A stretch of 64,000 nucleotides of DNA, from positions 1,116,001 through 1,180,000 of the forward strand of contig MJGA01000006.1 of the NCBI GenBank assembly GCA_001910725.1, read 5' to 3'. The notes under the pieces were generated by a model, which saw only the letters and a program-made list of their open reading frames with translations, was not told where the DNA came from and did not search any database. Shown here in pieces: positions 2,435 through 52,359 of this stretch (its first letter is position 1; every line of letters begins with the position of its first letter). The stretch comes from Phanerodontia chrysosporium. Its lineage: Eukaryota > Basidiomycota > Agaricomycetes > Polyporales > Phanerochaetaceae. The position numbers and the translations under genes are program-made.

Positions 2435-3772
2435 TACGAATGGACCGTGATGCCACAAGGGTGTCGAAACGCACCCGCAACACATCAACGTCGCATGTTC
2501 GACGCGTTGCGACCATGGATTGGCACCATGTGTCATGTTTTCATTGACGACATTGCTATCTGGTCACAGGATCTCGACGAACACCGTCGCAACGTCGACA
2601 CCATCCTCTCTGCCTTGCGGAATCACTCGCTTTTCGCCTCTCCGAAGAAAACCGACCTCTTCGCACACTCCATTCGATTCCTGGGTCACAACATCTCTGC
2701 TGACGGCATCGAGGCGGACGAACGGAAGGCGGAGAAAATCATCACCTGGCCCACCCCCGCCTCTGCGACCGACGTGCGGGCCTTCCTAGGGCTCGTTCGC
2801 TACCTAGACAAGTTCTTGCCTCACCTCGCTGACCATACTCGCGTTCTCACCCCTCTCACGACGAAAGAAGTCGACAAGGTCTGGCCTGGCTGGACCACCG
2901 ATCACCAATTCGCCTTCGACAAGATCAAGGAGCTCGTCGTCTCCCGCGAATGCCTCACTGTCATCGACCACGCCAACATGGGCGACAACAAGATCTTCGT
3001 GTCCTGCGATGCTAGCGACTGGCGAACTGGTGCCGTACTCTCTTACGGGCCCAGCTTAGACACTGCTCGACCGGTAGCGTACGATTCGATGCAACTCAGT
3101 AAAGCCGAACTCAACTACCCGGTCCACGAAAAGGAACTACTCGCAGTCGTCCACGCCGCTGAGCTCATTCGGAAGATCGAGACCGATTTCCTGGAAGCTC
3201 AGGACAATCTTCTGCTCGCTAAGGCGAACCAAGCGCACCATGCTAATCGACATCGCGGCCGTGAAGTCCCGTACGCCGTCGGCGACTTCGTTATGCTCTC
3301 GACACTCCACCGTCGCCGCGAGTACATGCAACGTGGTGATACACGCGTTGCGAAGTTCATGGTGCGCTACGACGGCCCATATCGCGTGAAGGCAGCCCAC
3401 CCCGAAACGTCCACCTACACGCTTGATCTCCCACCCAACATGCGCATATTTCCGACCTTCCACTCCAGCTTACTCAAGCCTTACCACGCGAACGACGATG
3501 ATGCATATCCTTCCCGTGCTTACACCAAACCTGGGCCGATCATCGGACCTGACGGAGACGAAGAATGGCCGGTCGAACGCATTCTCGACCGTAAAAGACG
3601 TGGTCGCGGTTGGTCTTTCCTTGTGCGGTGGCGCGGATACGGACCCGAACATGACGAGTGGATACCTGGATCCGAAGCGGTTAACCTGGCGGTTTATGGT
3701 GATTGGCTGGCAGACAACGACCCCGAGGCGTTACCAGCGTGGCGGAAGCGCATGGAACTCGACATGGAGTAG
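2435..3772 (+). pseudogene. pol: Gypsy Pol remnant: RT/RNase H joined in frame to integrase C-terminus and chromodomain
   Basis: Open frame from the insertion junction to a TAG at 3770. It begins inside reverse transcriptase (YEWTVMPQGCRNAPATHQ), includes the catalytic block VFIDDIAIWS and the thumb/RNase H linker (FLGHNISADGIE, VRAFLGLVRYLDKFLP), and reaches the RNase H stretch NYPVHEKELLAVVHA. It then jumps directly, near position 3160, to the integrase C-terminal region (QAHHANRHRGREVPYAVGDFV) and ends with a chromodomain (WPVERILDRKRRGRGWSFLV, then WRGYGPEHDEWIP). The end of RNase H, the zinc-binding HHCC domain and the DDE core are absent, yet the frame is preserved. Some RT positions are also non-consensus, for example PQGCRN where the family usually has an L-C-N type block. 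The product cannot carry out integration. Confidence 0.85.
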
Positions 3773-33451: not shown

Positions 33452-33854
33452 TGTTGTGATGCGCAGACTCTGGGATGGAGGAGAACAACGAGATAATATT
33501 TTTGGGATTATTCTACGAGTTTTATACCCTACATAGATTTGCTTCCATGTATCTAAAGTAGGTAATAATCAAATGAAAAATGCTCGCTCTGAAAAAGGCG
33601 GAATCTAATCTAGAGGATTGATAAGGGAGCGCTGGGGATTGATAACTACGGAATCTAATCTAACGATTACTCAGAGCGGAAAAGAGGAATGGGGAAGGCG
33701 GCGAGACTTGTCCCGCCGCGAGACCTTGTAAGGATACGCCGACGGCGCGTCTTTTGATGGGCGCTCGGCGCTTCAGCCCTCCGGGCGCGCCGGAGCTTTT
33801 GACTTCCGTCTGCACGACGGTTTTGAGTGCGCCCTGGCGGGGCGACTTTCAACA
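33452..33854 (-). repeat. Copia 3' LTR
   Basis: 403 bases, TGTTGTGATG...CTTTCAACA as read on the plus strand, identical by eye to 38055-38457. It is the 3' LTR because the coding strand is minus. Preceded (minus sense) by the purine tract TTGAGGGGAG. Confidence 0.95.
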
Positions 33855-33860
33855 CTCCCC

Positions 33861-36800
33861 TCAACGAGTGGCCATGTTGGCGAGGGCGAGCGCGGCGCGG
33901 TGCTTGGGCCGCGGGAGCGCCTTGGTGAACATGTCCGCGATGTTGTCTGCGGAGGCGCAGTGGATGACCTTGATGTCACCGTCGGTGATCCGCTCGCGGA
34001 TGAAGTGATGGCGGATGTCGATGTGTTTCGAGCGCGCGTGGAATTGAGTGTCGTGCGCGAAACTGATGGCGGCCTGATTGTCCGTGTGAAGGACTGTGGG
34101 AGCGCCGGGCGGGAAGCCTAATTCGGTAAGTAGGCGGCGGAGCCAGACGGCCTCCTTGGCGGCGTGGGAGAGGGCGATGTACTCGGCCTCCATAGTGGAG
34201 AGGGCGACGGTCGGCTGTTTCTTGGAGTTCCAGCTGACGATGCCGCCGGCGAGGAGATAGGCGTAGCCAGATACTGAGCGGCGGTCGTGTGCCTGAGCCC
34301 AGTCGGCGTCCGAGTAGCCGGTGATGTCGTCATCGGCGCGTCTTGCGAAAGTGAGCCCGACGTCGGTCGTGCCCTTGAGGTAGCGGAAGACGTGTTTGAC
34401 GGCGGTCCAGTGCGTGGCGGACGGGCGCGACGTGAACTGAGAGAGGGTCTGGACGGCGAAGGCGATGTCGGGACGCGTGCCGGTAGCAGCGTACATGAGG
34501 GATCCGATGGCGGCGGCGTAAGGTACATCGGCGGGCGTCTGATCTTCGGGCGTCGGCTCGAGTTTCACGCCAGGGTCCAGCGGCGTCGAGACGGGCTTGC
34601 AGTCTTGCATGCCGAAACGTTCGAGGATTGTCTCGAGGTAGCGTGTTTGCAGAATAGAAATCGCGCCGTTCTTGCGCGTGACTTGTAGCCCGACGAAAGA
34701 GCTGAGGGTGCCGTTGGTGGTGATCGCGAAGTGTTTCGCGACGTCGGCCTTGAATCGATCGAGGATGGAGCGCTCGCCGTAGAGCGCGGTGTCGTCGACG
34801 TGAACGAGGGCCATATTGAGTTTCCCCTCGTGCTTGAAGTACAGGCAAGGGTCGGCCTCGAAGCGCGTCCAGCCCATGAGGCTTGTGAGGACGTGGTTGA
34901 GCAAATGGTTCCAGACGCGGCCTGCCTGCTTGAGTCCGTAGAGGGCTTTGATGAGGACGTAGACTTGCCCTGATCCGTCGTCGTAGCCGGGTGCCTGGCG
35001 CATGTAGATCTCCTCCTCGAGCGGTCCGTGGAGATAAGCGCCAACGATGTCGAGTGCGTCGGAGTCGAGGTTTTCGGTAGCGGCGAGAGCTGTGGCGACG
35101 CGGAAAGTTTCCTGGCGGACGACGGGTGAGAAAGTGTCGAAATAGTCTTGTCCGGCGATTTGAGAAAAGCCTTGTGCGACGAGGCGAGCCTTGTACTTGT
35201 CGATCGAGCCGTCCTGGTGGCGTTTGATGGCAAAGACCCATTTGCTGCCGATGGCTTTGCGGCCCGGGGGCAGCTCCCCCTTCTTCCAGGTGCCGTTGGC
35301 TTCGAGCTGAGCCATCTCGGCGTCCATGGCGGCCTTCCATTTCGGCCAGTCGTCGCGAGTCTTGCATTCGTCGACCGAGCGAGGGTGGTCCGAGTCCATA
35401 GCGGCGTAGCAGAAGTATGCCTGGGCGCTATGGTACTGATCCGGTGATGGATCGGAGTCGTCGTCCTCCGAAGGTGGCTTCGGGATGCGTGTGCCGGTTT
35501 CGTGTAGGGCGCGGTAGTCGATACGGGTCCTCTGGCGTGTGGGGCGTATCGTGACGTTCCTGAGTTGTGACTTGAATTGTGCCCAAGCGGCGTCTTCAGG
35601 CTTGTTTGGCGTCGAGGGTGACGCCTTGACCGATTCCGAGGTGGAGGTTTCCGGCGCTTGCGATGTCGGCGGCGGCGGTGTCGTGCCTGCGGCGGGGGAT
35701 GGCTCGGGAGCGGTCTCACTCTCCCCCTCAAGCGTGAAGGGGACGCTTGGAGACTCCCGCTCGCGCTCAAAGATGACGTCGCGCGAGACCAGGACTTGCC
35801 GGAGGCCCGGGACGTAGTAGCGCCAGCCGGCGCTAGACGCGCTGATCCCGGTGAAGATGTATCGCTCGCTCTTTGCAGCGAGTTTGTCGCGCCGGTTTTC
35901 GGGGACGAGCACCCAGCAGGGTGTGCCGAAATCGCGCGCAGCGCGCACATCCGGTTTCTGTCCCCAGAGAGCCTCGTAGGGGGTCTTGCCTGAGAGCGCG
36001 CGGGTGGGGGTGCGGTTCCGAAGGTAGCAAGCGTACGCCCACGCTTCTTGCCACAGGAACTTGGGGAGGGAGCGCGCGATCAGCATCGCGCGTGCGCGTT
36101 CCATCAGCGTGCGGTTGAGACGTTCCGCGACGCCATTCTGAGCGGGGGAATAGGGTGCCATGGTGCGGATGATGATGCCGCAGGATTCGGCGTAGGCGCG
36201 GAATTTCCCCTCCGTGTATTCTTTCGCGTTGTCCACGTGTAGGACCTTGACGCGGCGGCCCAGCTGCCGCTCGATGAGTTGCTCGACCTTTTGGAAACGG
36301 TCGAGGGCGGCGTCGCGCGTCTTCATGAAATCGACCGCGACGAAACGCGACTTCGCGTCGGTGAATGTGATCGCGTAGACATTGCCCTGCAATGACGCAA
36401 CGCGTGCCGGTCCCCAGATGTCCGAGTAGATGAGATCGGCGACCTGATCGACGGTGCCTGATGCGATCTCGGGGAACGGAGCGCGCGAGTGCTTGGCCTG
36501 AATGCAGGCGTCGCAGACGAATCCAGGGTCGGAGGACGTGTCGACGTCCATGCCTTCGACGAGGCCCTTGCGGTACATTTCCTGGAGTTGCGTCGCGTTG
36601 ATGTGTCCGAGTGCGCAGTGCCATTCGTACCAGGTGCGCGCGCTGTTGCGCGCTGCGAACGCGAGGGTGGAAGGCGCCGGTGTATGTCCCGAGGACGATC
36701 GTGACGTCATGTCCATGCGGTAGAGCTGGCCCATCTTGTGACCGACAGCGATAACGCGATCGCGGTCCTTGATGTGAAGGAGGTTGCCGGTGCCGTGGAA

Positions 36801-37877
36801 AGACATACCGGCCGAGGTGAGCCGGCCTAGCGCGAGGAGGTTGTGTGGGAGGTTCGGCGACCAGAGGCAGTTCCTCAGGGTGGCGGTGATTTTCCCCTTC
36901 GGCGTGGTGAAGACGACATCGACGTCGCCTTGTCCGAGCGCGGCTGTGCTGCCGACACCGACGATGGTGTGGCCGGGAGTGGGGGTGAGGTTCTTGAAAG
37001 CGGCGCGGTCGCGCACGATGTGGCGCTCGGACGCGCTGTCCCCCAACCAGCACTCAGTGCCTGGGGTGCTCGCGTAGGCTAGAGTAGTCGCTACGAATGA
37101 GTACGAGTCGTTCGAGGCTTCGCGCGACTCAGCGAGGTGGGCGCGGGTCGTGTTGCCGCCCGCGCCAGATCCCTGGTTCGAGGAACGGCAGACGTTCTTC
37201 AAGTGTCCCTCCTTGCCGCAGCCGTGGCAGAACACCCCCTTCAGGAATTTAGACTTCTTCGGCTTCTTGCCGGGCTTGCCGTTGCGCGCGACAAGCGCGG
37301 TGGTCGTGTCCCCCTTCGATTGCCGTCGAAGGTTTTCGCTCAGGACGCGTCCGATGACGTCGGACGACTTCTCGACGTTGTTCTGAGCGGCGACGAAGCT
37401 TTCCCAGCTCGGGGGAAGCGCGGACAAGATGTTGAAGGCGAAGTCTTCGTCTGTGATCTTGCCGCCGACCTCTGCGGCCTCGGCCCGCATCTCGGTGAGC
37501 TTTCTCAGCTCGTCCTCCATGTCCGCCCCCTCACTCATCTCGTACTTCTGTAGCCTCCTCACCAGCGTGACCTTAGCCATGGTGCCCTGGGTCGCATACA
37601 TGTTTTTCAGCGTGTCCCACGCTGACTTCGCGGTCTCGCAAGACGCGATGTGTATGGCGACGGCGGGAGAGCATCAGAGGCGGATCGCGGAGATCGCCTT
37701 CCGATCTTTCCGCTTCCAGGCGGTAGCAGCGGTCCCCTCGGGGCACGTTGTTTCCCCCGTGGCGTACTCGAGTAGGTCGAGCTCGGTGAGGATGTCCTTC
37801 TCCTGAATCGACCAAGAAAAGTAGTTTTCTGAGCCCTTGAGAGGCTCGATGCGTACGGTGTGCGGTGCGTCCGACAT
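33861..37877 (-). CDS. gag-pol: Copia Gag-Pol polyprotein with one in-frame stop
   Basis: Starts MSDAPHTVRIEPLKGSENYF at 37877 and runs in one frame to 33861, interrupted only by TGA at 37674-37676 (plus coordinates). Order of domains: Gag (MEDELRKLTEMRAEAAEVGG), zinc knuckle CHGCGKEGHLKNVC, protease (CWLGDSASERHIV), integrase zinc site (HCALGHINA...CDACIQAKHSRAPFP), DDE core (YSDIWGPA, VLHVDNAKEYTEG, NGVAERLNRTLMERARAM), reverse transcriptase (AIGSKWVFAIKRHQDGSIDK, LVHVDDTALYG) and RNase H (TGYSDADWAQAHDRRSVSGY, ALSTMEAEYIALS, HTDNQAAISFA). The protease site reads D-S-A-S instead of the usual D-S/T-G-A. All other catalytic blocks are present, so the copy is near-intact. Confidence 0.93.
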
Positions 37878-38039
37878 CTTGCTCGCGTGGCGAGATCAGC
37901 AATCTGGCGCCTAGGTGTGTCCGACGTATCTGACGTCCGGTGATGTCACAGGAGTGATCCGCGATGGATCTGCAGCAGCAAGATTCGGTCCGCGTTGACC
38001 GTAGCAAAGGGTGAGATGGTGTTTGGGGCGACTTAGAGC

Positions 38040-38054
38040 GCGGAGCTCATAACC
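38040..38054 (-). other. Primer-binding site for a half initiator-tRNA-Met
   Basis: Directly after the 5' LTR the minus strand reads GGTTATGAGCTCCG. Its complement contains GAGCTCATAACC, which matches the anticodon stem-loop of initiator tRNA-Met (anticodon CAU). Internal-tRNA (half-tRNA) priming is known for copia-type elements; here it is inferred from sequence only. Confidence 0.65.
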
Positions 38055-38457
38055 TGTTGTGATGCGCAGACTCTGGGATGGAGGAGAACAACGAGATAAT
38101 ATTTTTGGGATTATTCTACGAGTTTTATACCCTACATAGATTTGCTTCCATGTATCTAAAGTAGGTAATAATCAAATGAAAAATGCTCGCTCTGAAAAAG
38201 GCGGAATCTAATCTAGAGGATTGATAAGGGAGCGCTGGGGATTGATAACTACGGAATCTAATCTAACGATTACTCAGAGCGGAAAAGAGGAATGGGGAAG
38301 GCGGCGAGACTTGTCCCGCCGCGAGACCTTGTAAGGATACGCCGACGGCGCGTCTTTTGATGGGCGCTCGGCGCTTCAGCCCTCCGGGCGCGCCGGAGCT
38401 TTTGACTTCCGTCTGCACGACGGTTTTGAGTGCGCCCTGGCGGGGCGACTTTCAACA
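38055..38457 (-). repeat. Copia 5' LTR
   Basis: 403 bases, identical by eye to the LTR at 33452-33854. It contains AT-rich stretches (GATAATATTTTTGGGATTAT) and a GC-rich part with CGGCGCG runs. Target duplication CCGGT follows at 38458-38462. Confidence 0.95.
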
Positions 38458-39166: not shown

Positions 39167-42100
39167 TCAGATGTGGCGCCCCTCCTCCCAGTCGAGATCG
39201 GCCTTAGCGCGATCGGAGGCAGGAAGGAGAGAGACGTCGACTTCGGTGACGAACGGGCGAAAAGAGGCGGCAAGGGCTTCGAAGGCGGTGGCAGCGAGCT
39301 TGCGGGGCGCTTCCGGATTTTCGCGATGAAATTTGTTGACCAGGGCCTTGGCGTGCTTGAGGTTGTCTGCCTTTTCCCACGTGTCGCCGGCTTGGCCGTA
39401 GCCTTTCCAGCGGACTTTATACTGCAGTTGGCGGCGGTATATGCGGCTGTCGAGGATCTTCTCGACGACGTATTCTTTTTCGCCGGCAACCTTGACAGGT
39501 TTGGGAGGCAGGGGCTTCTCGACGCCCTGATCGTGCCACGGGCTGAGGCGGTTGACATGGAAAACCGGGTGGATTTTCAGCCAGCTCGGGAGCTCGAGCC
39601 GATAGTCCAGATCGCCGATCTTTTCCAGAACCTTAAACGGGCCCAGCTGACGAGGGCCGAGCTTGGGCGAAGGCTGATCGATGCTGAGGTCTTTCGTGCT
39701 GAGCCAAACCTGATCGCCGACTTTGAAGGAGTGGGCGCGTTTCTTCGCGGCCTCGTACTCTTCTTTCATGCGGGCTTTGGCTAGGCGCAGGGCAGCTTCG
39801 GCCTCTTTGCGAACGTGAGCCATGCGGTCTAGGCGCTCATCGAGAGCGGGAACCTTGGTGTGTTTGCCGGCCGGGATCGTGAAGTCCGGTGTGTAGCCGT
39901 AAACAATCTCGAAGGGCGTGCGCTCGGTAGCACTAGACACGTGTGAGTTCAGGGTGAACTCGGCCATCGGGAGCCAATCGACCCAGTCGTCTTGGCGCTG
40001 GGAGACGAAGAGACGCAGGAATTTCTCGACTTCCTGGTTCTTGCGCTCGACCTTGCCGTTGCCTTCGGGGTGATATGCCGTGGTGAGGCCGGTCGCGATG
40101 CCGAGGCGCTTATACAGCGCTCGCATGTACTGAGCTGCAAACTGGGGTCCACGATCAGAGAAGATCTTGCGTGGGAGGCCGTGAAGACGGAAGATGTCCG
40201 TGTAGTGGACGTCGCCCATGCCGGCGGCGGTGATTGTTGAGTCGACCGGTACAAGGTGGCACTGATCCGAATAGTGGTCCACGTAGACCGCGATCGAGTC
40301 CTTCTTGGTCTTGGCGTCGCGTGGGAGCTGTGTGATGAGGTCCACGCCAACGTGTTCCCAGGGCCCTGAAGGGACATCGTGGGGCTGTAGAGTGGCCTTC
40401 GGGTGCGGGGCGGACTTGTACCGTTGGCATTGATCGCAGCCGAGCACGTAGCGGCTAACATCGGCGGAGATGCGCGGCCACCAATAGTACCGAGAGACCA
40501 ATTCGAGGGTGGTGTGTTTCCCAGGGTGTCCGGCGGTCGGCGCGTCGTGGCAAGACTTGATGACGTCGTTGCGCAGCGCGGCACTGTTCGGGACATAGAC
40601 TTTCCCATGGTAGTATAGGAGGCCGTTGTCCTCTTCCCATTCGAGAACGCCGTTGCGCAGCTTGCGGGGCCCCTTGGTCCAGAGAGTCTGCAGGGCGTCT
40701 GCGACTTCCTTTTCCTTTTCGGAGCAGTCGCGAATGCGCTTCTCGAGGGGGGAGGGGTTTGCGAAGGCTGCCGTGGCGGCTATCTTAAACAGCTCTGGCT
40801 TCAACACTACCTGCGAGCGATTGTCTTCTTCGTCGGAGACATGCAGCGAGGAGGGCCGGGAGAGCGGATCAGCGAGGAGATGGGTCTTGCCGGGGCGGTG
40901 GATGATGTGGAAGTCGTACTCGGCGAGGTAGGAGGCCCACCGGGCTTGTCGCCGCGTGAGATTCTGTGCAGTCTTCCAGTACTGGAGATTCTGATGGTCG
41001 GTCCAGATCTCAAAAGGCTCCGGGAGACCTTCGAGGAACTGGCGCCAGTCCTTGAGAGCTTCAATGATTGCAAGCATCTCACGGTCCCAGATCTCGTAGT
41101 TCCGCTCGGCGGGGCTCATGGTCTGTGAGCGATACGCGATTGGATGCCAGAGACCATCTTCAGGGTTGCGTTGGGCTATGACTCCTCCAGTGGCGTAGCC
41201 AGAGGCATCGGTCTCGACGCGAGTTGGCCGATCAATGCTCCACATGGCGAGCACGGGCTGAGTCGTGAAAGCGCGCTTGAGCGTCTCGAAGGCTTCTGCC
41301 TGTGCGGGACCCCAATTAAACGGAGTATCCTTCTTCGTCAGATCGTGCAGCGGGCGGCAGATCTTTGAGAAGTCCTTGATGAAACGGCGATAGAAGTTGG
41401 CGAACCCGACAAAGCCTCGTACGTCTTTGAGGTTCTTCGGGGTCGGCCACTCGGCTACTGCCTTAACCTTGCCGGGGTCCATGCCGACTTGTCCTTCGCT
41501 GATGAGGAGCCCAAGATACTCGATCTCTGAGCGCTCGAACTCGCACTTCTCGGGCCGAAGGTACAGATCGTACTTGGCGAGGCATGCCAGGACCTCGTGA
41601 ACAATCTTCCGATGCGAAGCGAGATCGTTCGACCAGATGAGGATGTCGTCGAGGTAGACTGCGACCTTGCTTTCGGCGATGAGGTCGGCGAAGATGTGGT
41701 TCATGAGGGCCTGGAACGTAGCGGGGCTGTTGCACAGACCGAAGTACATGACTCTGGGCTCGAAGAGACCACGGTTGGTGACGAAGGCGGCTTTCCACTC
41801 GTCTCCTTCCTTAATCCGGACGTTGTTGTAGCCCCAACGGACGTCGAACTTGGTGAAGATTTTAGCGCCCTGGAGCTTCCCGATGATGTCGGAGGCGAGC
41901 GGAAGGGGGTAGCGATTCTTCACGGTGATGTCGTTGAGCTTGCGGTAATCCTGAATGAACCGGAGCTTGCCGTCCTTTTTCTTGATGAAGAAGACAGGGG
42001 AAGCGATCGGAGACTTGCTGGGGACGATATAGCCCTTGGCGAGTGCGTCGTCGATGAACCGCTGTAGTTCTTCGTTCTCGATCGGGGACATGGGATAAAC

Positions 42101-42913
42101 TTTCGATTTGATCGAGGCCGAAGCGTCCGGAACGAGATCTATCGCGTGATCCCAGGGCTGATGCTTCGGAAGGCGGTGCGATTCCTCTTCAGAGAACACC
42201 TTCTTGTGTCGGTGGTACTCCTTGGGGACCAGCTCTTCGAACGTCTTGGCGTACTTCTCGCGATTGGCTTCGACAGCGATCGCTTGCGAGTAAGTGTAAC
42301 CGGCGAGGATCCAGACTTCGTCCTTGGCGTCCTCGACAATGCCTGCTCGAAGCCATTCTCGGCGTTCGGAGCGATTAGCGTCAATCTGATGGATACCGAA
42401 AACCGGGGTGTCCTCAGCTCCGCCGCGGAGCTGAAACTGGACATCACCCGTTTCCCAGTCGATGTTCGGATTTCATTTCTTGAGCCACGGAAGTCCGAGG
42501 ATGACGTTCTCGGGACCAATGTTCGTGACAAGAAACTCCTCCTTAAACGTGTATGAACCGACAGTCAGCTGGAGTCTGGCGCGATGCGTGATAGACCCTG
42601 CTTCGTTCCTAGTTCCGTCGATGTTGTACAGTGTGATTTCCCTTTTGAGCGGTACCGTGAGAATCTTGTGTTGCTTACAAAAATCCTCGTGGATGAACAA
42701 CGAAGTCGCACCGGAGTCAATCATTGCAGGCGTGCGAATAGTTTTATTGATCCCGGTGAGCTTTACTGGTACACGATAGTGATTCGAAAAGGGGTCTAAT
42801 ACTGATATGGTACATGAGCGGATGGTATCGGAAGCGTCCTGTGGTTCTACAGAAGGCGCCGGAGTTGAATCCGGGCTTGACGAAACGGGGACCGACGATG
42901 CGGCGTCACTCCG
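39167..42913 (-). CDS. pol: Outer gypsy Pol: protease, RT, RNase H, integrase, chromodomain
   Basis: The frame is open through the gag 3' end in the -1 frame. Protease: PAMIDSGATSLFIHEDF and PENVILGLPWLKK. A TGA at 42473-42475 follows directly, then NPNIDWETGDVQFQLRGG resumes in the same frame. RT: FIQDYRKLNDITVKNRYPLP, FDVRWGYNNVRI, CNSPATFQALMN and the catalytic VAVYLDDILIWS. RNase H: VETDASGYATGGVIAQ, EIWDREMLAI and WTDHQNLQYW. Integrase: zinc site HDAPTAGHPGKHTTLELVSR...CDQCQRYK and DDE core (VGVDLITQL, FSDRGPQFAAQ, NGKVERKNQEVEKF). Chromodomain: YVVEKILDSRIYRRQLQYKV, RWKGYGQAGDTWEKADNL. The C-terminal tail of about 50 residues has no recognised domain and no dUTPase. Only the TGA prevents a complete reading. 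Confidence 0.93.
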
Positions 42914-42918
42914 GCCCC

Positions 42919-43280
42919 TTAAGCAAAACCCCCGAGCTGCTTTTGTATCAGAGCCAGCTGATCACGGAGGGCGGCGATCGCGGCAGCTTGGTCGTCAGAC
43001 GAGCTGCCAGAAGACGAGGAGGCCGGAGACGAGGAGTCCTGTGACGAGGTATCCGAAGACGAGGCGCGGACGGCGGCGGTAGCGGGGGCGGTTCTCGGCT
43101 TGCCCTCGAGGCGAGCGCGACAGACGCGGGACCAGTGACCCTTCTTGCCGCAATGGTTGCAAACCGAGTCGCGGTGAACGGGGTCCGTGGATTTGTGGGA
43201 CTTCGAGCCGCAGACCTTGCAGCGATCCTTGATGACAGCGTCGAACTGGCGCTTGAGATCCGTGCCAGTGAGACCCTTAA
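42919..43280 (-). pseudogene. gag: Outer gypsy gag, C-terminal half
   Basis: Continuation of the gag that starts at 51244. It reads GLTGTDLKRQFDAVIKDRCK with two metal-binding blocks: CKVCGSKSHKSTDPVHRDSV and the zinc knuckle CNHCGKKGHWSRVC. A Ser-rich stretch and AAAIAALRDQLALIQKQLGG end the protein. Removing the nested element and one CTTAA copy (7075 bases) restores the frame to that of the N-terminal half, so gag was a single ORF before the insertion. Confidence 0.88.
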
Positions 43281-43880
43281 TGTCACAGTTTTTCGTCTTA
43301 ACCCTTAGGGTTAGGGGCAGCAGGTGACAGAAGCGATTACTCCGAACTGTGACATGCAGAAGCGCTGGAGTGACAGCCCTAGGCTCGGGGCTGGTCACGT
43401 GATACGGCGGTCACGTGATGCGCACACGTGCGGTATCCCAGGGTCACATGGTCGAAGGTCTAGAAGCAGGCAAGGGTCTGGAAGCGCCGAGACACTCCGG
43501 AATGGACTAGAAAGCCCTGGAGGTCTCTGGACAGGTCCGGACAGTGCTGGAACGTTCTGGAGGTTTCTGGGACATCGTAGGAACATTTAGGAACGTGTAG
43601 GAGAATGTAGGAATGCCTGTAGGGCACTAGCCAATAGCGTAGTAGGTATTAGATAGCTAGGACCCTGAACACCGGTCCCTGGGGACCTGGTACACATGTA
43701 TATAAACCCTGAGGGCTGGGGGTGCCTCCCCAGCTTCAATCTCATCGCATCTCACCTCTCTAGCCTCTATACCTCGTCTTCAAGCCTGGCTACACCCTTT
43801 GTAGTCCAAGTAAACCTTTGCCAGTGAGTATTGCTGGTTGGTTTGGTGTATAGGCGCTAGGGCAGCGCATTTTTGTGATA
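43281..43880 (+). repeat. Inner gypsy 5' LTR
   Basis: 600 bases, TGTCACAG...TTTGTGATA, with inverted ends of the type TGTCACA/TATCACA. GTATATAAA at 43699-43706 is a good TATA box, followed by a CT-rich start region (CTCATCGCATCTCACCTCTC). Near the left end it carries CCCTTAGGGTTAGGG, a telomere-like motif. An 88-codon frame inside the LTR (43324-43590) is not considered a gene. Confidence 0.97.
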
Positions 43881-44189
43881 GAAGATTGAAGCTAGCCAAC
43901 CTACTCCACCTTTGGTGGCCTAGGTTATTGCTTTGGGTTCTGGGGGCTTGTTTGAACAAGTGCTTTCGCGCTTTGTTCAGTTTTCTGCCGATCCACAGGC
44001 GTAAGTGGGCACTATAGTACCTTTTTAGGTACAGACAGGGGAACGTGGTGTAACCCACCTCAGAGGGCTTTGCCTGCGGACGAGTAACCCCTGTTGTAGT
44101 GCTGGACTAAGGGTGTAATACCCTGTCCAACCAGTTTTAGCTGTGTGGCGTGGAAACCCACAGTAATACCCCTTTCTCTTCGTTGAGGG

Positions 44190-45002
44190 TTGGCTGGCAG
44201 GAAAGCCTTGCGCTTTGCCTGTGTGGAGAAGTTTTCTGGCTTGTGTACACAGGCTGACCCGTGTTTACTAGTGCCTAAAGCTGCTAGGAACCGTTTTGTC
44301 CTTGCTAAGGACGAGAGCTCTGGCAAACCCTTGCTTGAGCGCATCAAGATCTCGAACCTTCACCGCTTCAAAGACATTGGGAAGCCGCGCCCTGCGTACA
44401 AACCTCGCACTACACCCTACACCCCTGTCCCTGGTCGTCGTGAAAGGCTTGCTCGTGAAGCAGACTTGAACGACTTCAAGCACCAGCTTCAGCTCGAAGA
44501 CTATCGCAACGAACAGCGCAAGCGCCGCCTACTCGATCGCATCGCGAACGCCTCTCCCCCTCTACCCCTCATCGAACGTATTGAACCTCCCCCTACTCCC
44601 CCTATCGAAGTCAAACCCATTCCCAAAGACCTTCGCTTTCACACCAACACTCAGGTCCATCAGCTGCGCGACTACGGACGAAAGTTCAACGGCGCCCTTA
44701 ACCACTTGGGTCCGTTCTTTCAGAAGCTAGACGAGCAGCGTTTTCGAGTTGGGTTGACTGAACACGAGCTCTACACCTTGGGCTTGTTCAAGGAGAGGTT
44801 CGACAACATTCGCAAACACCTTCAGACCATCGTTGAGACGAAGGAGTACACCACGAGGGAGTGGAAGAAGATTTCGAGGGATTTGAAGAAGGCAGGCGCA
44901 CATAGCTTCGCTGAGCTTAAGCCACGCTTCGCTGAGCATTGCAGGGAGCTGATTCAGGAGTTGGGTGAAGATTGGTTGTTTTTGGAGAAGAACCTCGATT
45001 AG
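44190..45002 (+). CDS. Accessory ORF before gag in the inner gypsy element
   Basis: 270 codons, or fewer if translation starts at an internal Met; the start is uncertain because the frame is open before it. The N-terminal part is basic with ERIKISNLHRFKDIGKPRP. Then comes a charged, coiled-coil-prone stretch (NDFKHQLQLEDYRNEQRKRR), a proline-rich hinge (IEPPPTPPIEVKPIPKDL) and a helical C-terminal domain ending RELIQELGEDWLFLEKNLD. It stops 29 bases before gag. No known domain was recognised. The outer gypsy element has an ORF of similar size, position and layout (51670-52359), so it appears to be a conserved part of this element lineage. It is distinct from Gag, which has its own complete core and zinc knuckle. 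Confidence 0.7.
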   Translation: MAGRKALRFACVEKFSGLCTQADPCLLVPKAARNRFVLAKDESSGKPLLERIKISNLHRFKDIGKPRPAYKPRTTPYTPVPGRRERLAREADLNDFKHQLQLEDYRNEQRKRRLLDRIANASPPLPLIERIEPPPTPPIEVKPIPKDLRFHTNTQVHQLRDYGRKFNGALNHLGPFFQKLDEQRFRVGLTEHELYTLGLFKERFDNIRKHLQTIVETKEYTTREWKKISRDLKKAGAHSFAELKPRFAEHCRELIQELGEDWLFLEKNLD

Positions 45003-45031
45003 TTTTTGTATCTGCGCGTTTTTGAATCAAG

Positions 45032-46612
45032 ATGTCGCTCAATTCAAATCCTGTTGACTTTGGTTTGCGTTCTGCTTCGAGTTCAAGTGGCATGGACCCT
45101 TGGGGAGCGTTAGAACTTGGCTCTATGGCTGAGGGAGGCCCTACCCCAGTTTTGGCCGCTGCGCCGCTTTCGACCTCTTACGAAGAGTACAGCCAGTCAT
45201 GGGTACAAGCCGCTCAGGAAGGACTGACTCCTGGTGACTTTAAGGCCCTCGTTGACAGCCTGGGTAACTGGGTAAAGGCTGAAATAGCTCAAGTAAGGTC
45301 GGAAATGGGTTCAGAAGTCCTTCGCTTGAAGGAAGCCCTTCGCAAACGCAAAACCGAGGCCAAGACACTTCAGGAGCAGATAGACATTCTTGAGCAGACT
45401 AGACAGCACTTGTCTGCGCAGATAGCAGAGGCTCAGAACCAAAATCGCGTTTTGCAGAACGCTATGCAGGTGCTGAAGCAGGAGAACGAGAGCTTGAAAG
45501 TGTTGGTTCAGCAAGGCACTAGTGGAGGCAACATTGGGTTGTCTCAGTCTTTGTTCCCTACCATGAAGGAGCCTGACACCTTTAATGGTGATAAGGCTAG
45601 CAAGCTGGATGACTGGCTCGAGTCGATGGCACTCTGGTTGCGCCACCGTGGCGTAATGGACGACGAAAAGAAGATAGAGACGGCGATGACTTACCTGCGA
45701 GGTTCAGCAAAGAAGGTCATGCAAGAGTACTTTGACAAGGTGGCAGACTCAAAGCCCCTTGGTACTTGGACCAACTTTGTGAACGAACTCCAGAAAGGAT
45801 TCCAACAGACCGACAAGAAGGACAGGGCAAGGGCAGAGTTTGAGCAGCTTGTCAGCAAGAAAGGGACGAACGAGAAGACTTTCAACGAGTTTGCCGCTCG
45901 CTTCCGTTCGCTGGCTCGCCAAACTGGCTTCTCCAACGAGGAACTGTTGGTCAAAGCCTATGCCCATACCCCTCGTGCCGCCGCCGATGTACTGGCAGCC
46001 CGTGGTCGTGCTCAGTGGGCTACGACCTGGGATGGTTGGTTGAAGGATGTTCAGGAGATTCTGCAGGATCAACGTCTCTTGACGGGCACCGTACTCTCTG
46101 GACAGCCTCAGTCGTCGAAAGACCCTGACGCTATGGATGTCGACGCCTTGAAGAAGGGCTCAGCCCAGGGCAAAGGCAAGACAGCCAAAGTTCAGAAGGT
46201 TGCCATGTCGTTCGAGGAGGCGAAGAAGAAAGGCTGCTGCGCTCAGTGTGGAGGCAAAGGCCACATCGCCAAGGAGTGTCCATCGAAGAAGAACAACTCA
46301 GGTTCTTCGACGTCGTCGAGTAAAACCACCAATGCACCAGTGGCCAGTTCGTCAAAGGCTTCGTCTTCAAAGGGAAAGGAGAAGGATAAGGGCTCTCGCC
46401 ACACAAAGAACAGTGTGCGCGAGGTGTACGCCAGCGACTCGGAGAGATTCCAGGAGGTAGCCTCTGACGAGGAGTCGAGCTCGGATAGCTCAGAAGAAGA
46501 AGATGCCCCCAAGACCAAGCAGAAGAAGAAGTCGTCTTCGAAGGAGAAGGCGCAGAAAATTAACCGTGTGGTGTTCTCAGACAATGAGGATTTTCTGCAG
46601 GGACTGATGTAG
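45032..46612 (+). CDS. gag: Inner gypsy Gag with coiled coil and zinc knuckle
   Basis: 526 residues, starting MSLNSNPVDFGLRSASSSSG. A long coiled coil spans about residues 85-165 (ALRKRKTEAKTLQEQIDILE, VLKQENESLKVLVQQGTSGG). The retrotransposon-gag core follows (EPDTFNGDKASKLDDWLESM, TAMTYLRGSAKKVMQEYFDK, EFAARFRSLARQTGFSNEEL). The zinc knuckle is CAQCGGKGHIAKEC, followed by a Ser/Lys-rich tail with acidic clusters (DEESSSDSSEEEDAPK) and a basic KQKKKSSSKEKAQK stretch that may act as a nuclear localisation signal. The frame is fully open. Confidence 0.93.
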   Translation: MSLNSNPVDFGLRSASSSSGMDPWGALELGSMAEGGPTPVLAAAPLSTSYEEYSQSWVQAAQEGLTPGDFKALVDSLGNWVKAEIAQVRSEMGSEVLRLKEALRKRKTEAKTLQEQIDILEQTRQHLSAQIAEAQNQNRVLQNAMQVLKQENESLKVLVQQGTSGGNIGLSQSLFPTMKEPDTFNGDKASKLDDWLESMALWLRHRGVMDDEKKIETAMTYLRGSAKKVMQEYFDKVADSKPLGTWTNFVNELQKGFQQTDKKDRARAEFEQLVSKKGTNEKTFNEFAARFRSLARQTGFSNEELLVKAYAHTPRAAADVLAARGRAQWATTWDGWLKDVQEILQDQRLLTGTVLSGQPQSSKDPDAMDVDALKKGSAQGKGKTAKVQKVAMSFEEAKKKGCCAQCGGKGHIAKECPSKKNNSGSSTSSSKTTNAPVASSSKASSSKGKEKDKGSRHTKNSVREVYASDSERFQEVASDEESSSDSSEEEDAPKTKQKKKSSSKEKAQKINRVVFSDNEDFLQGLM

Positions 46613-46696
46613 AGGTTATGACCTCTGGTCCGTTTTCGATTTCCTTCACCCACTTGACTCAATTGAACATGTTTTGGAATTGAGGAAGGCCTTCAT

Positions 46697-47072
46697 TTGA
46701 GCTTTATCATTCCAGTAACACTGAGTCAGAGTAGGGAAATCAGAGTGCAGACTACCGCGCTGGTTGATTCAGGGGCCTATGCTGTGTTCATTAGCCATCG
46801 CTTCGTCAAGAAGCATAAGCTGAAGACGAACCAGCTGACCAGGGAGATACGCGTTTACAACGCAGATGGCTCCAGAAACAAGTGTGGCAGTATTGAGGAG
46901 TATGCTTGGCTCGACGTAGCCATAGGGGACCATGTCTCCAGACAAGCGTACCCCACTACAGATCTGGGTGGAAAGGACGTTTTCTCGGCCTTAGCTGCTC
47001 GAAGAAGTCTAGTCAAAGAGTAGACTGGGATGAGCATGGGCAGCATAAGCAGAACTCGAAGAACTGATGAAC
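46697..47072 (+). CDS. pro: Inner gypsy aspartic protease
   Basis: Reads IIPVTLSQSREIRVQTTALV, DSGAYAVFISHRFVKKHKLK and RVYNADGSRNKCGSIEEYAW, a retropepsin with the D-S-G-A active site. After GGKDVF the frame breaks at a TTTT run (46980-46983). Restoring one T gives LGLSCSKKSSQRVDWDEHGQ, the usual end block of gypsy proteases, and a stop near 47072. It is separated from gag by 84 bases, so the way it is translated is unclear; it may once have been joined to a polymerase. Confidence 0.8.
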
Positions 47073-47798
47073 TAGGACTTCGAGGAGGAAAGAGCAGAGT
47101 TTAGGCTCTAATTGTCGCTTGCACCACCTCAGATTGGCCACAGTTTTGGGCAGTTAAGCTGCCAGAAGGGAGGAATCAAAGATTCCAATGTTGTGTCCCT
47201 CAGTTTCGGCTATCTGACCAAACTTTGGAGCCTCTCAACTGTTGAGAACCAAAGTAGGGCGAGTATTACTACTCAGAAGGCCCAGTGTTGTGCCATTTAT
47301 TTGGACGAGTTAGTCAGATAGTGCAGGTCCCTAGGCACCGAGGTACTGGTACCTTTGGGGAGGGCTCCACAACTTAGCTTCGAGGTACTGAAGCAGAAGT
47401 TTTTGGGTTGCTTGCCGAGCAAGCGACAGGGCAGTGTCTCTCAACCTGAAGATGTTTGCAACACCTAGTTGGAGTTAGCATTCAGGGTATAACCCCAGAT
47501 ACTTCAGAATGTCGAGAGCAACTGCAGAAGTTGGGTCAGAAGGGCTTTTACCTATATTGGCTACGCATAGACTCTTGGAGTCGGCCTACACACATTGGAG
47601 CTGAACGCACTAGCCTGAGAAGGGGCTGATCCTATGTCCAGGAGGCCATATCCTGAATTGGGGGTAGATTGCCATAATCGTGGAAACCACATTGAGAAGC
47701 CAGAATCTTCCACGATACGAGCCCAAGGCAATCTGGCCATTCAGTGATAAGGGACACTAGCAAGAGGCTAGCAAGAGGATCAATACAAGCCCAGTTGG
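47073..47798 (+). other. Non-coding stretch where reverse transcriptase and RNase H should be
   Basis: About 0.7 kb between protease and integrase. All frames carry frequent stops and no RT or RNase H motif could be found; a 70-codon frame (47112-47321) is not recognisable. The space is far shorter than the 1.5-1.8 kb a gypsy RT-RNase H needs. This is a deletion or replacement, not mere point decay. Confidence 0.75.
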
Positions 47799-49049
47799 AT
47801 GACAGAGTCATCAAGTGTTATGGACCATGAGAAAGGACCAAGAGAGTTCGGGAAGGACTTAGCAGAATGGCACCTCGAGGATGGGCTACTACTGCACCGA
47901 GGCAAGGTGTATGTGCCCAAGGACGACAAGATTAGGGCGGATCTACTCAAGTTACACCACGACTTCCCTGGGGCTGGACACCCTGGACGATGGAAGACGT
48001 TGGAGTTGCTGTCGCGCAACTACTGGTGGCCAGGAATGTCAGTTTACGTCAAGAAGTACGTCGCAGGTTGCGAAGTCTGCCAGTCACATAAAAACGTCAA
48101 CCAGAAGCCTGCTGGCCTGCTACAACCGAACGAGGTTCCGTCGGAACCCTGGGAGATAATCTCATGCGATATGATCACGGACTTGCCTGAGTCGGACGGT
48201 TACAACGCTATCTTCGTAGTCGTTTGCCGCTTAACCAAGCGAGCACATTTCCTCCCCATCACCAAGGAGTTTTCAGCCAAGGATCTGGGAAATTTGCTCT
48301 ATGAGCGTGTTTGGCCTTTGCACGGCCTACCCAGACAGATCATTTCGGATAGAGGAACGCAGTTCACCGCGAAACTCTTCCAGGAATGGTGCAGACTCCT
48401 GGGGATCAAGTCAGCAATGACTACAGCGTTTCACCCTCAGGCAGACGGTCAGACTGAGCGAGTTAATCAGTCATTGGAGCAGTATCTGCGCTGCTACACA
48501 AGCTTCAGGCAGGACGACTGGGCGTACCTTTTGCCCTCTGCCGAGTTTGCGTACAACAACCAGGCGCATGAAAGCACCAAGAACTCGCCATTCTTCGTCG
48601 AATATGGCCGTCATCCACGCATGTTCCCAGAGCAGGACCGTGTTACAAGGTTGTCAGAACTGGACGACTGGACGAAGCTTAGACAGGAGGCCCAAGATCA
48701 GGCGAAAGCCGCGCTCATGCTGGCTGCAGAGCGAATGAAGTGGTACTACGACCAGGGTAAATCAGAACCCTTGTTCAAGGTCGGAGACCGTGTTTGGCTT
48801 GACGCAAAGGATCTGAACCTTCGGGTTCCCTCCAAGAAACTGGCACCAAAGCGAGTAGGCCCTTACGAGATCGTAGAGCAGCTGGGACCGGTCACCTTCA
48901 AGCTGAAGTTACCAGCCCATGTGAAGATTCACCCGGTCTTCCACACAAGCAAGCTCACGAAGCACGTCGAGGATGAGGTTGCCAATCGCACGCGCAAACC
49001 CCTACCACCCATTCGTGTGGGTGATGACGAGGAGTACGAGGTCGAGTAG
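47799..49049 (+). CDS. int: Inner gypsy integrase, up to a single TAG
   Basis: Starts in a linker and reads DLAEWHLEDGLLLHRGKVYV. The zinc domain is HHDFPGAGHPGRWKTLELLS with RNYWWPGMSVYVKKYVAGCE and VCQSHK (HHCC). The catalytic core has SCDMITDLPESDGYNAIFVV (first Asp), IISDRGTQFTAKLFQEW (second Asp) and DGQTERVNQSLEQYLRCY (Glu). The C-terminal part is FKVGDRVWLDAKDLNLRVPS and HPVFHTSKLTKHVEDEVANR. The frame ends EEYEVE then TAG at 49047-49049 and continues in the same frame into the chromodomain (IVDAQPDSKGRVMYRVRWRG). A CAG codon would give the usual E-V-E-Q-I-V-D-A link, so one C-to-T change explains the stop. Confidence 0.93.
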   Translation: MTESSSVMDHEKGPREFGKDLAEWHLEDGLLLHRGKVYVPKDDKIRADLLKLHHDFPGAGHPGRWKTLELLSRNYWWPGMSVYVKKYVAGCEVCQSHKNVNQKPAGLLQPNEVPSEPWEIISCDMITDLPESDGYNAIFVVVCRLTKRAHFLPITKEFSAKDLGNLLYERVWPLHGLPRQIISDRGTQFTAKLFQEWCRLLGIKSAMTTAFHPQADGQTERVNQSLEQYLRCYTSFRQDDWAYLLPSAEFAYNNQAHESTKNSPFFVEYGRHPRMFPEQDRVTRLSELDDWTKLRQEAQDQAKAALMLAAERMKWYYDQGKSEPLFKVGDRVWLDAKDLNLRVPSKKLAPKRVGPYEIVEQLGPVTFKLKLPAHVKIHPVFHTSKLTKHVEDEVANRTRKPLPPIRVGDDEEYEVE

Positions 49050-49715
49050 ATCGTAGATGCACAGCCAGACTCTAAAGGCCGTGTTATGTACCGAGTACGG
49101 TGGAGAGGCTACGATGAGCATAGCGACACATGGGAATACTTGCCCAATCTCAAGCACGCTATGGCGAAGGTCAAACAATTCCACAAGAAATACCCAGATG
49201 CACCGAAGGCAGTTTCCCTTCTGCAACGCCACCACGACGAGGAGGATGAGTTTTTCGTGCGCGAACTCGCGCTACTCCAATCTTGGGGAGCAGACGACCA
49301 GTTCGAGGTCGAGCTCATGAACAAGGATGCAAAACTTCCCTCACGTGGCTTGCCAGAAAGCGCAGGGTTGGATCTTTTCATCACGGAGGACCTTACGCTC
49401 AAGCCCCATGATCGCAAGCTAGCGCCAACTGGCCTTCGAATGTGTACTCCACCAGGTACCTACGCTCGAGTCGCACCACGGAGTGGCCTCAGCCTCAGAG
49501 GCATCGACATAGGAGCAGGCGTTATTGACCGAGATTATCGAGGAGAGCTCAAAATTCTACTCATCAACAACTCGCCCGACACCTTTACATTCCACAAGGG
49601 TGATCGTGTCGCTCAACTCGTGCTCGAAAGAATCTCCTACGCCAAACCAACTCCGGTTTCTCGCCTCGACTCAACCATTCGCAGCAGCGATGGTTTTGGC
49701 TCCACTGGTATTTAG
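49050..49715 (+). CDS. dut: Chromodomain fused to dUTPase, C-terminal end of the inner gypsy Pol
   Basis: In frame with the integrase past the TAG. The chromodomain reads VDAQPDSKGRVMYRVRWRGY and DEHSDTWEYLPNLKHAMAKV, and would bind modified histone tails to direct integration. A 40-residue linker leads to a complete trimeric-type dUTPase. Counting from the Met at 49086: motif 1 SAGLDLF (92-98), motif 2 PRSGLS (131-136), motif 3 AGVIDRDYRGEL (144-155, with the catalytic Asp and the uracil-selecting Tyr), motif 4 GDRVAQLVLE (172-181) and motif 5 RSSDGFGSTG (199-208). It stops one residue later. It would hydrolyse dUTP to dUMP and pyrophosphate and so limit uracil in element cDNA. All key residues are present, so activity is plausible. 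It could be read alone by internal initiation or through stop read-through. Confidence 0.93.
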   Translation: MVDAQPDSKGRVMYRVRWRGYDEHSDTWEYLPNLKHAMAKVKQFHKKYPDAPKAVSLLQRHHDEEDEFFVRELALLQSWGADDQFEVELMNKDAKLPSRGLPESAGLDLFITEDLTLKPHDRKLAPTGLRMCTPPGTYARVAPRSGLSLRGIDIGAGVIDRDYRGELKILLINNSPDTFTFHKGDRVAQLVLERISYAKPTPVSRLDSTIRSSDGFGSTGI

Positions 49716-49750
49716 GCTTCACCAGGAGGTTCAGCTAGAATTGGGGGTAA

Positions 49751-50350
49751 TGTCACAGTTTTTCGTCTTAACCCTTAGGGTTAGGGGCAGCAGGTGACAG
49801 AAGCGATTACTCCGAACTGTGACATGCAGAAGCGCTGGAGTGACAGCCCTAGGCTCGGGGCTGGTCACGTGATACGGCGGTCACGTGATGCGCACACGTG
49901 CGGTATCCCAGGGTCACATGGTCGAAGGTCTAGAAGCAGGCAAGGGTCTGGAAGCGCCGAGACACTCCGGAATGGACTAGAAAGCCCTGGAGGTCTCTGG
50001 ACAGGTCCGGACAGTGCTGGAACGTTCTGGAGGTTTCTGGGACATCGTAGGAACATTTAGGAACGTGTAGGAGAATGTAGGAATGCCTGTAGGGCACTAG
50101 CCAATAGCGTAGTAGGTATTAGATAGCTAGGACCCTGAACACCGGTCCCTGGGGACCTGGTACACATGTATATAAACCCTGAGGGCTGGGGGTGCCTCCC
50201 CAGCTTCAATCTCATCGCATCTCACCTCTCTAGCCTCTATACCTCGTCTTCAAGCCTGGCTACACCCTTTGTAGTCCAAGTAAACCTTTGCCAGTGAGTA
50301 TTGCTGGTTGGTTTGGTGTATAGGCGCTAGGGCAGCGCATTTTTGTGATA
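49751..50350 (+). repeat. Inner gypsy 3' LTR
   Basis: Identical by eye over all 600 bases to 43281-43880. Preceded by the purine tract AATTGGGGGTAA at 49739-49750, 25-35 bases after the dUTPase stop codon. Followed by the target duplication CTTAA. Confidence 0.97.
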
Positions 50351-51244
50351 CTTAAACAGCTCGTCGATGTTTGCGGCGTCGATGTCCATCGCGTTCGGGT
50401 CGCGGAAGGCGCGCGCCGACGAGCTAGCCGGAGACGAGGACGTCTTGCCCTGCTGCGCCAGGAGGTCTTGCGAAAGCTTGTCCTTCGACCGATCGACGGC
50501 AAAGCCAGCGTTCTTGAGCTCGTCGTACGTCTCGGGGCCTTTGCCGGTGCTGGGGTTGACCATGTACGAAATCCGTTCGAGGTAGTCTTTGTTGAACTTC
50601 GTCCGTAGCCGGGCCGCCAGGTCTTCCGGAGTGAGCTTCGTGCATCCGGCGAGGGCTTGGAACTCCGCAAAGAACTCCGCGAACCGACGGTTGCCTTGTG
50701 TACACGCCTGCAGCTTACTGAGGGCCTCGGCCTTCTCGTCCATAGGCTCGAACCGGTTCTTAAAAGCTTCCCAGAACGTGGCGCGAGAGCCGTCGAATAT
50801 CTGTGTGCCGTCTGCCGCTTGCTCGATGTACTGCCGTGCCCATTCGGCCGCTTCATCCTGCATGAAGGAGAGAGCACCGACGATCCACTTCTGGCCGTCT
50901 ACCAAGATCTTGCCGGTGTTTGCGTCTCGTTCGAGGTTACCGTTGACGTCGCGCTTGCCGAATTTCTCTGGCTGCCCGTCGGCGTAGATGCGATAGGCGG
51001 CACGGAAGAGACGGGCCGTGTCCGAACCTTTCCCTTTGAACGGCATAGGCTTCTCGACGAAGGGGAGCTCCTTGTTGGCATTGACCGTTGCATTGACCGT
51101 TGTCCGATTGGCGCCAATAGTCTGGGCCAGAGTGTTAACCGTGTTCGTGAGCTGCGTCATAGCTTGAGCCATCTGCAGGAGGGCAGCGGAGATGGGGTCG
51201 GGGGGAGCCGGGCCGGGAGGCGCTCCACCGGGAGTGCTTGACAT
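50351..51244 (-). pseudogene. gag: Outer gypsy gag, N-terminal half, cut by the nested element
   Basis: Starts MSSTPGGAPPGPAPPDPISA at 51244. It holds the retrotransposon-gag core (FVEKPMPFKGKGSDTARLFR, WIVGALSFMQDEAAEWARQY, FWEAFKNRFEPMDEKAEALS, FAEFFAEFQALAGCTKLTPE) and reaches DPNAMDIDAANIDELFK just before the nested LTR at 50350. The CTTAA target duplication sits at 50351-50355. Confidence 0.9.
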
Positions 51245-51669: not shown

Positions 51670-52359
51670 TTAATCGAAATATCCAGCCCGGTATACAATG
51701 TCTAACTCCCCTACGATGCGGCGGAAGTTGCGCCTTAAACCGATAAACGAAATGTCACCGATCTGAGCAAGTCCAAGCTCGTACTGGTGCCACTCCTTAA
51801 ACGTGGTCGTGGGGGCGAGGCGGCTGAGCTCGTTGCGGATCTGCTGAAGTCGTTTGAGCAGCTGGCGAACTCCTCGCGCACGGTCGCTGTTGACGAGGTG
51901 GAATAAGTCGACTTCCTCGACGGCCTTGAGACGCTTGATGGTCGCGTCGAGCTTGGGTGTGAAGATGCCGACGAGGTCGGTGGGGGAGTATTTGGGAATG
52001 TCGATGCCGACGGGCTTGCGGGCGATGGGCTCGTACGTCGGGGCGGCGCTGAGGCGCTCTGCCAAACTGAGCTTCGAGGAGGAGGCGGTTACGGCGGCCT
52101 GGGCTTCTTGCGCCTCGCGTTGGCGCTGCTCGCGGATGCGGTTGCCTACGCGCTGTTCGGCTTCGCGAGCCTCGCGGACGGCAGTCCAGTTGATGGAGGG
52201 GACAGAGGGCGGAGGTGTCGGGAGCGTGGAGACGTGCTTGATGACCGCCTTGACTTTGCGGTCCGTCCACTTGACGGGGTTACCGGCCTCGCGTCGACGT
52301 TGGAGGCGGTCGAAGATGCGCTGGGGAATGTGGTCCTTCAGCCGGACGTCTTTCGGCAC
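51670..52359 (-). CDS. Accessory ORF before gag in the outer gypsy element
   Basis: 229 residues: MPKDVRLKDHIPQRIFDRLQ, then KWTDRKVKAVIKHV, an Arg/Glu/Gln-rich coiled stretch (AREAEQRVGNRIREQRQREA), KLSLAERLSAAPTYEPIARK, GIDIPKYSPTDLVGIFTPKL and a helical end (VRQLLKRLQQIRNELSRLAP, LRRNFRRIVGELDIVYRAGY). It starts 153 bases after the 5' LTR and ends 425 bases before gag. No known domain. Its size, basic N-terminus, coiled middle, I-x-I-P-K hinge and helical end match the layout of the ORF at 44190-45002 in the inner element. Confidence 0.7.
   Translation of the reverse strand: MPKDVRLKDHIPQRIFDRLQRRREAGNPVKWTDRKVKAVIKHVSTLPTPPPSVPSINWTAVREAREAEQRVGNRIREQRQREAQEAQAAVTASSSKLSLAERLSAAPTYEPIARKPVGIDIPKYSPTDLVGIFTPKLDATIKRLKAVEEVDLFHLVNSDRARGVRQLLKRLQQIRNELSRLAPTTTFKEWHQYELGLAQIGDISFIGLRRNFRRIVGELDIVYRAGYFD

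Follow-up and report, generated by a model that had tools for sequence, protein, structure and literature searches.

A chromovirus family of Phanerodontia chrysosporium with a chromodomain and a dUTPase at the end of Pol

The + strand frame at 49050-49715 of the window, by which we mean the whole analysed stretch of 64,000 nucleotides of Phanerodontia chrysosporium DNA, joins a chromodomain to a dUTPase within a Ty3/gypsy element, and raises the question of whether the enzyme domain is a working part of the element's Pol protein or a fragment that landed there by chance. The frame has 221 open residues and then a stop codon. Pfam placed a chromodomain at residues 1-47 (PF00385, E 2e-9) and a dUTPase at residues 93-220 (PF00692, E 1.7e-38), the latter covering profile positions 2-129 of 129 with a score of 131.8 against a cut-off of 22 bits, i.e., a whole-domain match. 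An earlier sequence-only reading had proposed a complete dUTPase directly following the chromodomain of a Ty3/gypsy Pol. The complete domain and the single frame were borne out, but a linker of ~45 residues separates the two domains. The motifs listed in that reading (SAGLDLF, PRSGLS, GVIDRDYRGEL, GDRVAQLVLE, and GFGSTG) are all present in order and make up what we take to be the five dUTPase motifs, with the Asp and Tyr of motif 3 in place.

In an alignment of 29 dUTPase sequences, A105, G106, D108, P143, S145, G146, G157, D160, A188, and Q189 of the frame were invariant, and R144, Y163, and G215-G220 were nearly so. Motif 5 of this element family, denoted family A, reads RSSDGFGSTG, and most aligned relatives have RG at the start of the motif. 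The AlphaFold2 model of the frame had a mean pLDDT of 84, and its confidence was low over residues 56-69, in the region linking the chromodomain to the dUTPase. A search with the model retrieved the Entamoeba dUTPase 3lqw as the closest solved fold (E 1.8e-14, TM 0.92 by target length), and similarity to solved dUTPases was also found at the sequence level. In the chromodomain of an intact copy, a Y, a W, and a Y line up with the CDYL/CDY chains of CDYL-type chromodomains, and presumably these are the cage residues. A chance origin of the chromodomain-dUTPase match is excluded.

The frame lies near the 3' end of an inner element (43281-50350) that is nested in an outer chromovirus of opposite orientation. 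The features of the two elements are as follows.

43276-43280, no strand: left target-site duplication CTTAA, flanking the identical LTR run
43281-43880, + strand: 5' LTR of 600 bp, identical to the 3' LTR at 600/600 positions
45032-46612, + strand: gag ORF of 526 aa (Retrotrans_gag PF03732, E 4.3e-8)
46697-47023, + strand: open frame of 108 aa in the place of the N-terminal part of the protease, labelled by its position in intact Pol (full-length copies match to 47034)
47035-47618, + strand: block replacing ~1.6 kb with the RT and RNase H of full-length copies (from copy comparison and a probe)
47799-49049, + strand: integrase part with H2C2, rve, and SH3_Tf2-1 (Pfam), ending at the TAG at 49047-49049
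49050-49190, + strand: chromodomain (Pfam), the first few residues of which precede the TAG
49191-49325, + strand: chromodomain-dUTPase linker (from the Pfam limits; partly of low model confidence)
49326-49709, + strand: dUTPase domain with five motifs (Pfam and fold match)
49713-49715, + strand: stop codon, one residue past the GFGSTG motif
49751-50350, + strand: 3' LTR (from LTR comparison)
50351-50355, no strand: right target-site duplication CTTAA, flanking the identical LTR run
39167-42199, - strand: pol part of the outer chromovirus with RT, RNase H, IN, and chromodomain (Pfam)
50327-51244, - strand: gag part of the outer element, Retrotrans_gag (Pfam match 50330-51244; the ORF enters the inner LTR by a few bases)

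The window copy is a defective member of its chromovirus family, with a Pol that is not intact. Full-length copies gave good matches at 43278-47034 and 47619-50342, with a weak stretch near 47042-47168, such that ~1.6 kb of RT and RNase H has been swapped for ~0.6 kb. Furthermore, the TAG at 49047-49049, corresponding to Pol residue 1164, falls between the integrase and most of the chromodomain and thus severs the chromodomain-dUTPase tail from the integrase. The LTR identity over 600 bp and the 5-bp CTTAA duplication on both sides indicate a recent insertion of this RT-less copy. LTRs normally end in CA, and this end has been altered alike in both inner LTRs, which start with TGTCAC and finish with GTGATA. 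Upstream of the inner gag there is also a 270-aa ORF (44190-45002, + strand) that had no Pfam match.

The insertion most likely interrupts the gag of the outer element; another supposed piece of that gag (42919-43398) had no Pfam match. As noted in the sequence-only reading, the outer element lacks a recognizable dUTPase (no Pfam match in the pol part), but the use of this absence as a sign of gain or loss had a weak basis. The outer element shares 51% identity with family A over 835 RT-IN columns and belongs to another clade of the RT-IN tree, and for this reason we rejected it as a close sister that had gained or lost the domain; being so distant, it says little about recent changes. Three other features of the window should be mentioned: a 229-aa ORF without a Pfam match upstream of the outer gag (51670-52359, - strand); a Copia element (33452-38354) whose frame at 33861-37601 has RVT_2 and rve and whose direct repeats start at 33452 and 38055; and a chromovirus remnant (2447-3772) in which the SH3 and chromodomain matches come after RNase H without an intervening match to the integrase core.

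When the genome was searched with the 221-aa frame, the fusion proved to extend well beyond the window copy. Family A occupied at least 84 near-full places, the window included (at least 213 residues of the query, 86-100% identity); at least 73 of these had no stop inside the chromodomain-dUTPase stretch, and at least 33 had a stop-free frame of exactly 1385 aa. These counts are lower bounds since the best 150 of 330 candidates were scored. The intact 1385-aa frame of locus L040 encodes, in one frame, PR, RT, RNase H, IN (H2C2, rve, SH3), chromodomain, and dUTPase, and a probe from its RT region matched 40 places at 98-100% identity among the best 40 of 122 candidates. In family A, a fungal Ty3/gypsy chromovirus, the tail of Pol consists of a chromodomain and a dUTPase, and the frame at 49050-49715 forms the 3' end of its pol gene.

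The RT-less form has also been amplified, because a probe from the replacement block (47035-47618) matched 21 genome places at 92-100% identity. The window copy is one of these, and another locus, L058, was co-linear with it (98.4% over 6405 bases). The form retains gag and an integrase-chromodomain-dUTPase frame, which spans at least 604 aa from stop to stop in 16 of the 21 places, and it is presumably mobilised in trans. L058 diverges from the window copy by 5.5% in the spacer and by 1.3% in this frame. Among the five RT-less copies read as DNA, out of 21, the dUTPase had 9 synonymous and 6 replacement changes (pN/pS 0.23), two copies had a stop elsewhere in the frame, and no fixed differences from other family A copies were found. 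Constraint on the dUTPase looks weaker in this form.

A dUTPase is also carried by other families in the genome. Family B (1393-aa frames) also has it after the chromodomain, as seen in the 1315 residues scanned of one copy. In family C (L045, 1752 aa) and family D (L048, 1829 aa), the dUTPase lies between the protease and RT; in a second family D frame (L049, 1778 aa) it precedes RT, and no protease match was obtained there. The displayed active-site motifs are intact in most copies of families A, B, and C. Pols of families C and D run on for ~350-420 residues beyond the chromodomain, and this stretch gave no Pfam match in family C (L045, 8267-9313).

Synonymous changes exceeded replacements in families A, B, and C, and the dUTPase therefore seems to be under selection in all three; the numbers lend support to this view and do not amount to proof. 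In nine distinct family A places other than RT-less ones, the dUTPase had 14 synonymous and 4 replacement changes (pN/pS 0.10), the integrase part 34 and 3 plus one stop (0.02), and the chromodomain 4 and 1 (0.06). The family B dUTPase had 52 synonymous and 19 replacement changes (0.13) and the integrase part 92 and 34 plus one stop (0.11), counted over 20 of the 21 given places, L022 having dropped out for want of a sufficiently long gap-free match; the short or broken B-like loci L021, L051, L052, L054, and L055 were not part of the given set. For family C (nine of nine places), the values were 14 and 3 for the dUTPase (0.07) and 16 and 13 for the RT part (0.22). It should be noted that all these ratios are biased downward, as the sample consisted mostly of the best matches to the chromodomain-dUTPase query or the dUTPase profile.

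Relatives in public data place the fusion in a wider history. Among the 120 matches listed, nine contained both the chromodomain and the dUTPase, and among the Pol relatives listed, six of 120 had a dUTPase; named relatives include Trametes, Phellinidium, Lyophyllum, and Agaricus. P0122 shares 93% identity with family A over the queried part of Pol. The RT-IN tree comprised 69 rows (63 of the 120 listed Pol relatives and six of our own) and 846 columns; it was a quick tree built without bootstrap, with long branches flagged at the outer element and at the join of families C and D with P0240. Family A with P0122 and family B with P0124 and P0125 fell into one 30-row clade, 22 rows of which lacked a dUTPase, although absence from a public protein may sometimes reflect a truncated frame. 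Over the whole tree, families C and D included, the starred branches require dUTPase presence to have changed four times or more, so that gain or loss within the lineage, as supposed from the sequence alone, is shown by the patchy distribution of the domain. On groups selected with trees already in view, the AU test rejected the eight rows with a C-terminal dUTPase as one RT-IN clade (p 2.5e-6), and likewise six of them. A single gain without losses is thus excluded, which leaves a gain with losses standing.

The dUTPase itself was poorly resolved in a tree of 131 rows, and a careful tree was built from 56 rows and 136 columns, leaving out P0126 and P0141 (very long branches), P0004 (apparently chimeric), and 72 further rows. 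In this tree, the family A dUTPase group had a support of 98/99, and AU tests, on groups picked after the trees had been seen, rejected a single clade uniting the A and B dUTPases (p 0.0225) and likewise one uniting every sampled C-terminal row (p 0.0099). With moderate confidence, these sequence comparisons suggest more than one acquisition of the dUTPase and repeated loss. Several dUTPase motifs have no recognizable copies in the C-terminal tails of P0125 and P0126 (the latter a cluster of 43 member sequences), the dUTPase-like tail of P0141 aligns weakly, and P0136 stops early. The loss of active-site motifs from the tails of P0125, P0126, and P0141 suggests that dUTPase activity is not required by every relative. 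The dUTPase of P0004 resembles P0003 in its first half and another type in its second half, and may be a recombinant or an assembly chimera.

No host DUT gene was recognized in three genome searches, in which the matches examined were element copies; the queries were P0001 (best 150 of 330 candidates), PF00692 (150 of 189), and the DUT of Lipomyces japonicus (150 of 189). Loci L051, L052, and L057 were considered as host DUT genes and rejected, because their alignments showed a likeness to family B (L051, L052) or family C (L057); they were not used as host genes. At L051 and L052, the family-B-like dUTPase lies in short ORFs with similar neighbouring ORFs, and the rest of Pol is not in frame.

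Taken as a whole, these data are probably best explained by a family A chromovirus whose Pol carries a chromodomain for targeting and a functional dUTPase tail, and we hold this reading to be likely though well short of certain. The tail, attached or freed by the protease, would most likely form trimers and hydrolyse dUTP in or near the particle, as its intact active-site motifs and the analogy with retroviral dUTPases suggest. The element cDNA would then most likely take up little uracil during reverse transcription. Chromodomains of chromointegrases aim integration, and that of family A, judging by its cage positions, most likely steers it to chromatin with methylated histones. The two modules would probably serve different steps and share one chain since the end of Pol tolerates additions, where a free C-terminus may keep motif 5 unencumbered. 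The window copy would be a form that lost its RT and is mobilised in trans.

Other readings were weighed against this one. That the fusion is a functionless chance join of a host DUT fragment, confined to the window copy, would agree with the defective state of that copy and the TAG that cuts off its tail; however, this was the outcome that the sequence-only reading had named as fatal to its proposal, and it is scarcely conceivable in view of the at least 84 genome places, the at least 33 uninterrupted frames, P0122, and the other chromodomain-dUTPase relatives in public data. The host-fragment artefact was rejected on the basis of copy number and relatives. The dUTPase tail might instead be mainly a trimerising or protein-binding handle on the integrase, with hydrolysis secondary. 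P0125 and the 43-member P0126 cluster do keep a C-terminal tail without intact active-site motifs, and bovine immunodeficiency virus, which is reported to require a dUTPase-related gene whose protein lacks dUTPase activity (PMC4261571), offers a precedent. However, most copies in families A, B, and C have intact motifs, with signs of constraint on the domain, and we judge the handle as its main role unlikely. Still less likely is that selection acts on the RT-less form itself, as a helper or parasite using the tail in trans. Its 21 places, the long frame kept in 16 of them, and the lower divergence from L058 in the frame than in the spacer would fit such selection, but the frame would equally be preserved if the form had arisen recently or had recombined with full-length copies, an alternative backed by the lack of fixed differences from other A copies. 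Moreover, constraint on its dUTPase appears weaker (9 synonymous to 6 replacement changes), and two of the five copies read as DNA, out of 21, contain a stop.

As to the origin of the tail, the C-terminal dUTPases of families A and B may both descend from one in a shared ancestor, with many losses along the intervening branches, a reading which we regard as doubtful but with a real chance of being correct. The domain occupies an identical position in both families, both Pols lie within the one 30-row clade, and the truncated or decayed tails of P0136 and P0126 suggest that losses occur; in addition, the dUTPase tree was short, at 136 columns, and an earlier tree had been seen before the groups to be tested were picked. 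Both the A plus B clade and the clade of all sampled C-terminal rows were nevertheless rejected by the AU test, and the family A group is separately supported. A bolder proposal is that at least two independent captures placed a dUTPase behind the chromodomain in this one clade, with the tail both hydrolysing dUTP and providing a handle for oligomerisation or targeting, because the end of Pol leaves motif 5 free and places a trimerising enzyme on the integrase. We offer it tentatively, as rather improbable in this full form. A dual-role tail, if real, would explain both the relatives with decayed tails and the RT-less copies that keep the integrase-chromodomain-dUTPase frame.

The data indicate that a dUTPase in fungal chromoviruses is no stray fragment but belongs to Pol, where it is constrained and has been amplified. 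One genome holds the enzyme at two different positions of Pol, in several element families, and its patchy presence, decay, and loss provide natural comparisons of related elements with and without it. This raises the testable question of whether uracil in cDNA limits fungal retrotransposition. To our knowledge, retroviruses with a dUTPase have no chromodomain.

The C-terminal arrangement, which the sequence-only reading had regarded as unusual, is not new: it was described by 2010, as Novikova et al. (2010; PMC2864245) report a dUTPase at the C-terminus of Pol in the Gypsy element PosPlaTy3-4 of Postia placenta, and in other Gypsy elements of that fungus an N-terminal dUTPase or one placed between PR and RT. 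Families A and B are like PosPlaTy3-4 in the position of the domain, a likeness taken from the published description and not from compared sequences, and families C and D are like the elements with a dUTPase between PR and RT. According to the same paper, dUTPases had earlier been described in elements of Phanerochaete chrysosporium (dUTPase-containing Metaviridae; Novikova and Blinov 2008) and Tuber melanosporum (Tmt1; Riccioni et al. 2008), which share with the present families a dUTPase in a fungal LTR retrotransposon; it considers the dUTPases apparently acquired independently and from different sources, a view with which our trees agree, and notes that viral dUTPase was assumed to permit replication in non-dividing cells. 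The sequence-only reading had conjectured a similar benefit for the element in non-dividing hyphal nuclei. In the available text of the literature surveyed (including PMC2864245, PMC2774666, PMC5408684, PMC11105155, PMC4531489, PMC3248453, and PMC1224870), we did not meet copy-level constraint, an amplified RT-less form keeping the integrase-chromodomain-dUTPase frame, or decayed C-terminal tails, and these are extensions of published work. Retroviral dUTPases, known from beta-retroviruses and non-primate lentiviruses, matter in non-dividing cells and likewise lie within the gag-pro-pol of a retroelement, viruses with three reading frames encoding the enzyme across gag and pro (PMC4531489). 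The LTR retrotransposons Juno, Vesta, and TelKA of bdelloid rotifers also have a dUTPase in Pol; theirs lies between PR and RT, and the available description reports no chromodomain behind the GPY/F module (PMC5408684), whereas family A carries its dUTPase at the C-terminus, behind a chromodomain.
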